A DNA stretch of 64,000 bases from Flexistipes sinusarabici DSM 4947 (lineage in GTDB: Bacteria; Chrysiogenota; Deferribacteres; Deferribacterales; Flexistipitaceae), in the NCBI RefSeq assembly GCF_000218625.1, contig NC_015672.1, positions 496,001-560,000 of the forward strand, read 5' to 3'. The notes below the pieces were generated by a model. That model was not told the origin of the DNA. It saw nothing but the letters and a program-made list of their open reading frames with translations, and searched no databases. Of this stretch, positions 31,774-55,278 are shown one piece after another. The translations under genes and the position numbers were made by a program. Each line of letters opens with the position of its first letter. The first letter of the stretch is position 1.

Positions 31774-31977
31774 TAAGTTTCGCACTTAGTTCAGTCATTG
31801 CGAAACCGAGCACTTAAAAATTTAAGTGCTCGGCTGTGGCAATCTCGAAATAGTAAAAGTAGAGAGATTGCTTCGTCGTCTTCACTCCCTGCCCTGTTAA
31901 ATGCCACAGGCAATCAGCGAAGCTGATATTTAACAGGGTGAACAAAGACGTGAAAACAGTGCAAGTGCAAACTTGAG
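31774..31977 (+). repeat. Family A palindromic repeat, copy A1 (MITE-like)
   Basis: About 204 bp, bounded by inverted ends TAAGTTTCGCACTT and AAGTGCAAACTTGAG and by direct repeats TAATATACT at 31765-31773 and 31978-31986. Inside are a 13-bp-arm palindrome CCGAGCACTTAAA (31806-31833), the GAGATTGCTTCGTCG segment and a three-way-junction core at 31892-31938. No ORF of its own. The 55-kb copy is its reverse complement with many substitutions. Non-autonomous mobile element is the best reading. Confidence 0.8.
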
Positions 31978-37039: not shown

Positions 37040-37225
37040 ACCCCTTCTTTATCTCCCCCTAAAGTAGGGGAGAGACCCGTTCCCATCCTAATATAGGAGG
37101 GGTCAGGGCTTGCCCTGTTGAATGCTGTAAGCAAATGGCTTAGCCATTTATTCAACTGGGGGTGGTATGAAAATAGCTGTTTGACAAGAGACCTCTCCAC
37201 TTCGGTCGAGGTGACAGTTTTTTGT
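37040..37225 (+). repeat. Family B intergenic repeat, copy B1
   Basis: Holds a core (37093-37188) that is about 93/96 identical to 43675-43770, including a three-way-junction segment at 37113-37160 and an alternative hairpin CAGGGC/GCCCTG at 37104-37117. It is flanked by smaller palindromic modules such as GAGACCTCTC...GAGGTGACA (37189-37216). The 682-nt gap between superoxide reductase and thiM contains only such repeats and the octamer array; short ORFs in it follow the repeats and are not genes. Confidence 0.7.
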
Positions 37226-43579: not shown

Positions 43580-44011
43580 TTATTAGCATATAGACAGAGA
43601 TTCCCTTGCCCGGTGGAGTGGAGTAATCTCTGACGTTAGTTTGACAATAAGTACCCCCTTTTATCCCTCTTAAAATAGGAGGGATCAGGGCTTGCCCTGT
43701 TGAATGCTGTAAGCAAATGGCTTAGCCATTTATTCAACTGGGGGTGGTATAAAAATAGTTGTTTGACAATGAGATTCCTCGGTTCCACTTCGTTTCACTC
43801 GGAATGGCATTTATCCATACGTGTCATCTCGATCAGAACGGAGTGGAGCGGAGAGATCTCAGACGCTGTTTGACAAGAGACCTCTCGGATGCGCTCGAGG
43901 TGACAAGTACATGCATACTGTCTAAGATGTTACACATATTTACCAGTCTAAAAGACTGGTGCTAGCCGCAGGCATTCTTTCGACCGAGCACTTAATGCTT
44001 TAAGTGCTCGG
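43580..44011 (+). repeat. Family B intergenic repeat, copy B2, with palindromic modules
   Basis: The core at 43675-43770 matches B1 with about three mismatches and carries the three-way-junction segment at 43695-43742. Downstream are GAGATTCCTC/GAGATCTC/GAGACCTCTC-type inverted modules and a perfect stem CCGAGCACTTAA...TTAAGTGCTCGG (43984-44011) shared with family A. The 655-nt gap between yjbQ and the RCK gene contains only these; the 68-codon ORF within it tracks the repeats. Confidence 0.7.
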
Positions 44012-53785: not shown

Positions 53786-53973
53786 ATTCAACAGGGTAAA
53801 ATTCTGAGAGTTTTGAGTAATTTGCTTTTTCGTTTTCGGCCGAGCACTTAATTTTTAAGTGCTCGGGTAGTCCCACTTCCGAAAACCTAAAAAAACACAT
53901 TATTCAAAGCTCTCGTCTTGTATTAGAGATTGCTTCGCTACGCTCGCAATGACGGAACTAAGTGCGAAACTTG
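53786..53973 (-). repeat. Decayed or chimeric family A repeat, copy A4
   Basis: Contains the right arm of a three-way-junction core (ATTCAACAGGG, 53786-53796), the shared palindrome CCGAGCACTTAA/TTAAGTGCTCGG (53840-53866), a GAGATTGCTTCGCTACGCTCGCAATGAC-type module near 53925-53953 and the terminal repeat CTAAGTGCGAAACTTG (53958-53973). The left partner arm of the core is missing. It lies between convergent meaB and the RsbW-like gene; the gap has no gene. Confidence 0.6.
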
Positions 53974-54024
53974 GCATAATAATTTAATTTTAATATGTCT
54001 GGGATTTTGAAATGTGGATTACTG

Positions 54025-55045: not shown

Positions 55046-55247
55046 CGAGTTTCGCACTTGCACCTATTGTGAGCCTTTGCTCACCCTGTTAAATATCAGC
55101 TTTGCTGATTGCCTGTGGCATTTAACAGGGCAGGGAGTGCTAACGACGAAGCAATCTCTCTCTTTTATTTTTTTGAGATTGCCACAACAGAGCACTTAAG
55201 AATTTAAGTGCTCGGTTTCGCAATGACAGACCTAAGTGCGAAACTTG
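55046..55247 (-). repeat. Family A palindromic repeat, copy A2 (MITE-like, inverted relative to A1)
   Basis: About 202 bp whose reverse complement aligns over its whole length with 31774-31977. Ends CGAGTTTCGCACTTG and CTAAGTGCGAAACTTG are inverted repeats; the flanks ACTTAATT (55038-55045) and AATTAATT (55248-55255) match at 7 of 8, a possible target duplication. The junction core is at 55084-55130 and the GAGCACTTAA palindrome at 55190-55213. The 490-nt gap otherwise holds only the putative promoter. Confidence 0.78.
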
Positions 55248-55278
55248 AATTAATTATTTGCGTTTAAAAGGGGGTAAA

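Follow-up and report, generated by a model that had tools for sequence, protein, structure and literature searches.

The window analyzed here is a 64,000-nt stretch of the closed genome of Flexistipes sinusarabici (2,526,590 bp), covering G000:C1:496001-560000, and coordinates given without a prefix are those of the window. On its + strand, a unit of 47 nt (family A, 31892..31938) reads, in order, CCCTGTTAAAT / GCC-ACA-GGC / A / ATCAGC-GAA-GCTGAT / ATTTAACAGGG. The left side of the outer stem, CCCTGTTAAAT (31892..31902, +), is a terminal inverted repeat, and the same word ends the gene-bearing elements described below; it is followed by arm 1 (31903..31911, +), arm 2 (31913..31927, +) and the right side of the stem (31928..31938, +). 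In full-length elements, the arms at these positions bracket the N-terminal half (arm 1) and the C-terminal half (arm 2) of a GIY-YIG nuclease gene, and the unit at 31892..31938 lies in the gene-sense orientation. Positions 31927..31941 (+) read TAT TTA ACA GGG TGA (Y-L-T-G-stop), which is likely to be the fossil 3' end of such a gene when compared with the C-terminus RLKSYLTG* of L264, L281 and L316. The family B unit of 48 nt (37113..37160, +) is composed of an outer stem (37113-37123/37150-37160), arm 1 (37124-37132) and arm 2 (37133-37149), and an identical unit lies at 43695..43742 (+). An inverted family A unit is found at 55084..55130 (- strand), and its sole difference from 31892-31938 is the arm-2 loop, AAA in place of GAA. 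The original prediction had described all of these units, and its letters, coordinates and layout of an 11-bp stem with two arms agreed with the sequence, as did the single T:T mismatch of family B, located at outer-stem pair 4.

The units of the window sit inside longer repeats. The family A unit is enclosed by a MITE of approximately 200 nt with the ends AAGTTTCGCACTT..AAGTGCAAACTTG (31775..31975, +), a second copy of which also carries a unit (55046..55248, -); the ends of both copies are approximate. The family B units are enclosed by a different host, a 105-nt repeat (37083..37187 and 43665..43769, both +), and further units are free-standing. Five other copies in the genome of the approximately 200-nt MITE, which is bounded by CAAGTTTCGCACTT..AAGTGCGAAACTTG, have no unit (L024-L028). 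The three-way-junction unit is an entity separate from its host MITE. As a side observation, one order relative has a GIY-YIG gene (L368) with the ends CTCGCAGTGACGGA..TCCGTCACTGCGAG, which resemble CGCAATGAC repeats at 53944-53993 and 55218-55267 of the window.

When the units of the window were folded as DNA, both the MFE and the centroid structures were a three-way junction, with z = -5.4 to -6.9, and 0 of 200 shuffled sequences were equally stable. Both strands of the unit fold. The two sides of each stem had been proposed to change together while the shape is kept, and a covariation test and a cross-phylum pair check agree on this. The genus is represented by 51 distinct copies, taken from three genomes; in this set, both sides were altered in 11 of 20 pairs, and 93.5% of the cells pair, compared with 20-47% in slid controls. 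The covariation score of these copies was 0.222 versus 0.120 after shuffling, with 0 of 500 shuffles reaching the observed value; as the 51-copy alignment was fitted to the structure, this score leans towards structure. The independent check relied on a search pattern in which outer-stem position 8 and the position paired with it could be any letter; in its 114 matches from across phyla, this pair was A-T 96 times, G-C 18 times and never mismatched. The window has no match to any family of Rfam 15. A likeness to integron attC sites (GTTRRRY/RYYYAAC words) was considered and dismissed: judged from the sequence and general knowledge, these words run with the opposite polarity in the folded strand.

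The pattern taken from the original prediction matched 18 exact places in the F. sinusarabici genome and none when it was reversed as a control. A covariance model built from 10 of these own copies located approximately 40 distinct places. The two repeat families that had been predicted both exist, and both are part of these approximately 40 copies. Of 40 own copies, 35 lie outside open frames of at least 100 codons; the copies occur in both orientations and inside other mobile repeats. One unit (G000:C1:2526562-2526590) is interrupted where the record of the circular chromosome was arbitrarily opened. Whole units nested in other units were also observed (L131:6856-6956, L152:4587-4671 and L115:6022-6118), two of them occupying the position of an arm.

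A congener (G017) was compared in 20-kb pieces representing approximately one third of its genome. Its orthologous MITE is identical over the compared stretch but without the unit: the filled site reads CTTTG[TTCA+47+CAG]GGAGTG, and the empty site in G017 reads CTTTG[CGA]GGAGTG. A second unit, beside L006, is also missing in G017, and the units at L003, L033, L045 and L048 are common to both genomes. These filled and empty sites show insertion polymorphism within the genus, which supports mobility of the units, whatever the route. Neither the two empty-site pairs nor G013 showed a clear target-site duplication. Direct repeats of 7 nt lie just outside the ends of 20 of 124 copies; a far control gave 4 and shuffling 1.5. 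The offset of these repeats varies, and several of them lie in repetitive flanks.

Within the order, the unit was found in only 3 of 40 genomes, all of them of the window's genus, and there was one further marginal match. Among the matches listed across all species, the outer-stem pattern with a free center was found in Patescibacteria, WOR-3, Desulfobacterota, Omnitrophota, Cloacimonadota, Bacteroidota and others, with the cross-phylum copies coming largely from metagenome bins. The 11-bp outer stem CCCTGTTRAAT/ATTYAACAGGG recurs across phyla; the arms vary freely yet remain complementary. In 70 of 104 distinct cores, both inner arms exceeded 95% of the shuffles, and 46 different arm-1 starts were counted. 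The exceptions, which have the outer stem without both arms, include short copies of WOR-3 and copies of 38-39 nt. Terminal inverted repeats are present with the consensus RTTYACCCTGTTRAAT at both ends, and the unit ends continue outward as TRAA.

To search for a parent, half-sites were enumerated in element-bearing genomes and the loci were then retrieved. A Moraniibacteriota genome (L264) contains units of 134-156 nt plus one of 297 nt. The 297-nt unit carries a gene for a GIY-YIG protein with the C-terminus RLKSYLTG*. The last codons of this gene, TAT TTA ACA GGG TGA, form the element's right end, which identifies the conserved TRAA extension as the stop codon. In Sungiibacteriota (L281), where the half-site was chosen blind to its content, the same kind of protein was found between the same ends. 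Elements of approximately 300 bp with these CCCTGTTRAAT-type ends, all coding for an Slx1-like GIY-YIG nuclease of approximately 85 aa with the right end TAT TTA ACA GGG TRA (Y-L-T-G-stop), were found in Moraniibacteriota (L264/L296), in Sungiibacteriota (L281), in the phylum of G008 (L313-L317) and in the phylum of G009 (L342-L346); the element of a WOR-3 relative (L284) has CCCTGTGTAAT ends. Within the genus of the window, a 5' remnant (L299/L300) retains the left end and arm 1 (TAGCTTGAGGT/ACCTCAAGCTA) intact, and its gene is cut after approximately 50 aa; it sits in the same genome as L135 (G018, a Deferribacteraceae bin).

The nuclease matches PF01541 with E-values of 3e-8 to 2e-17; the full proteins score 50-64 bits and the genus remnant 34 bits, against a cut-off of 22.6. 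The only solved structures that it matches are 1zg2 and 1ywl, both of which belong to the bacterial Slx1 family (PMC1564403), and the closest type is therefore Slx1, not UvrC or I-TevI. Relatives of the L281 protein were found in 147 of 380 genomes of its own phylum and, for the Desulfobacterales phylum, in 13 of 297. The nuclease is approximately 70% identical between these two phyla, and this implies that it was transferred between them. The nearest relatives of the L281 protein are bounded by CCCTGTTRAAT or CCCTGTGAAAT repeats. Terminal-repeat scores in control stretches were at most 11, with the exception of the control stretch of the GIY-YIG locus L304, which scored 22. Neither F. sinusarabici nor G017 yielded an intact gene of this type, so the F. 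sinusarabici copies may now be immobile, being either fossils or reliant on an absent partner. The GIY-YIG genes that F. sinusarabici does have (C1:2111429 and C1:2249240; L288 and L298) are identical, have an early stop, lie in a duplicated region and lack these ends. Small GIY-YIG genes hugged by quite different terminal inverted repeats of approximately 13-29 bp were noted at L282, L283, L301, L322, L325, L329, L330 and L363. In two order relatives (G032 and G025), GIY-YIG genes (L358 and L359) have CCCTGTGGAATA ends and lack the two arms.

The gene-bearing elements were also evaluated for folding. The predicted fold of 7 of 7 Patescibacteria elements with these ends consists of the outer stem and two arms. 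In arm 1, the segment just upstream of the start codon pairs with the mid-gene codons for ..L-K-L.., leaving the N-terminal half of the gene in the loop; in arm 2, the adjacent codons for ..R-F-E.. pair with those for ..R-L-K-S.., and the C-terminal half is in the loop. Synonymous-codon shuffles, in which the protein is kept, reached the observed arm score 2, 0, 0, 0, 0, 0 and 0 times of 400 for the seven Patescibacteria genes, and 0, 0, 5, 0 and 0 times of 200 for five genes of the Desulfobacterota group (L342-L346). The letters of the arms vary from gene to gene with the complementarity kept. On these shuffles, the predicted junction in the genes is shown to exceed what the protein sequence forces. 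The arms are missing in two other Desulfobacterota-group genes with these ends (L347 and L348) and in most GIY-YIG genes bounded by terminal repeats of another sequence.

The 134-156-nt units in the L264 genome share their junction letters and 3' end with the gene of that genome; compared in this way, these copies are shown to be intermediates between the gene-bearing and short forms. The genus link to the gene is based on one truncated gene and shared ends, and the arms of the small genus copies do not match those of the truncated gene.

Taken together, the units very probably derive from a GIY-YIG gene element bounded by terminal repeats, and the 47-nt units are best read as non-autonomous derivatives that lack the coding loops. 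The full-length form of approximately 300 bp would contain little beyond a single gene, whose product is an Slx1-like GIY-YIG nuclease of approximately 85 aa. Loss of one or both coding loops would give the 134-156-nt and 47-62-nt forms, in which the shape is kept and the gene is gone. The nuclease, which has about an even chance of being the mobilizing enzyme, would recognize the branched structure of the extruded or single-stranded element and cut this structure at its base. The host, by repair or replication, would then copy the element to a new place. The gene-less copies would be served in trans by the nuclease.

The same data were considered under other explanations. One is that the units are ordinary MITEs of an insertion sequence, in which a DDE transposase recognizes the terminal inverted repeat and the small units and GIY-YIG genes are cargo. 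The inverted terminal repeats, the graded copy sizes and the 7-nt direct repeats described above would fit such an origin. However, no larger element with these ends was found among the half-sites of the retrieved loci and of five genomes; the longer forms there were solely 134-156-nt units, nested units and GIY-YIG elements of approximately 300 bp. An autonomous transposase parent with the same ends was likewise not found, and the parents with these ends encode the GIY-YIG nuclease only. Moreover, the gene occupies the whole element with its 3' end being the terminal repeat, cargo has no need of arms that beat synonymous shuffles, and the gene-hugging terminal repeat recurs with other repeat sequences. 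We consider this explanation unlikely.

The order of events could also have been the reverse, with three-way-junction palindromes existing first and GIY-YIG genes homing into them, and GIY-YIG domains do occur in homing endonucleases, which are invaders of sites (general knowledge; PMC1564403). However, the coding sequence fills both arm loops and supplies the arm strands and the right end, which a single insertion cannot yield, and the intermediates still show, at the junction and at the 3' end, letters that come from the gene. This order is accordingly judged quite improbable.

The original prediction proposed a structured RNA or an ssDNA recognition element, such as those bound by REP-associated tyrosine transposases. 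The conserved shape, the compensatory changes and the character of a mobile element of the single-strand type are supported by our data; recognition of a REP by Y1/RAYT is not. Palindromes of the REP/BIME type, which a REP-associated Y1 tyrosine transposase (RAYT) mobilizes, are also small folded repeats, and the Y1 transposase that was to be looked for is present: F. sinusarabici has three Y1_Tnp (PF01797) genes, and Y1 was detected in 11 of 16 other element-bearing genomes. However, neither the 30 Y1 loci examined in these genomes nor the three own genes have a copy at a distance of 1.5 kb or less (0/30 and 0/3). The remaining 5 of the 16 genomes have no detectable Y1, an absence that is uncertain in draft bins, and the ends of the units coincide with the GIY-YIG gene instead. 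Movement by RAYT is thus very improbable. A functional structured RNA or regulatory element selected on transcripts, for example a terminator or an RNA-stabilizing element, is equally improbable, for its agreement with the covariation and with the location of most own copies outside long open frames is opposed by the lack of an Rfam match, the folding of both strands, the occurrence in both orientations and inside other mobile repeats, the polymorphic presence, the patchy distribution across phyla and the failure to see a conserved position beside the same genes in distant genomes.

Returning to the derivation from a GIY-YIG gene element, we propose, with confidence evenly divided for and against, that these elements form a distinct class of bacterial mobile element, in which a Slx1-like GIY-YIG gene of approximately 300 bp is both coding and folded into a branched DNA that would be cut by its own product, breeding gene-less three-way-junction repeats. 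Such elements are undescribed in the open-access full texts searched. Many bacterial genomes hold small palindromes of unknown origin, and the main solved case is that of REP elements with RAYT. The elements proposed here would provide a second, different parent for bacterial palindromes, namely a nuclease gene in which one and the same sequence codes for the protein and folds as branched DNA, and could rank among the smallest self-sufficient mobile elements known. The arrangement of a terminal repeat hugging a GIY-YIG gene may be general, as far as the loci compared here indicate, and with other terminal repeats such elements may have given rise to additional palindromes that are common in bacteria. 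The predictions are directly testable, as to which enzyme, which structure and which site are involved.

Compared with known systems, the units are similar to REPINs/BIMEs with RAYT (PMC2817692, PMC3116915) in being small, mostly intergenic folded repeats with a conserved hairpin shape and one small nuclease-type enzyme encoded elsewhere. They differ in that the enzyme is GIY-YIG rather than HUH/Y1, with no neighboring Y1 genes found, and in that the repeat would be derived from the gene's own sequence, the gene itself being predicted to fold into the repeat's shape. With IS-derived MITEs, which arise by internal deletion, they share terminal inverted repeats, graded internal deletions and many gene-less copies per genome. 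In contrast to such MITEs, no DDE transposase was seen, the proposed parent is a one-gene element of approximately 300 bp, and the internal fold is conserved, not the ends alone.

The nuclease shares the minimal stand-alone domain of the prokaryotic Slx1 family (1zg2, 1ywl; PMC1564403), these two structures being its nearest solved relatives by sequence. Structure specificity, a property of the eukaryotic Slx1-Slx4 enzyme, would be in keeping with a branched substrate. The prokaryotic family has been described as largely vertically inherited and likely to act in DNA repair (PMC1564403); the subgroup studied here, unlike that description, is bounded by terminal repeats, moves between phyla and leaves behind repeats that lack the gene. 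For part of the prokaryotic Slx1/GIY-YIG family, a housekeeping role is thereby called into question. Free-standing GIY-YIG homing endonuclease genes of the I-TevI type are likewise selfish nuclease genes. However, homing copies a gene into an allelic site, whereas the elements described here occupy many unrelated sites and have structured ends and gene-less derivatives, and their nuclease is closest to structures of the Slx1 lineage.
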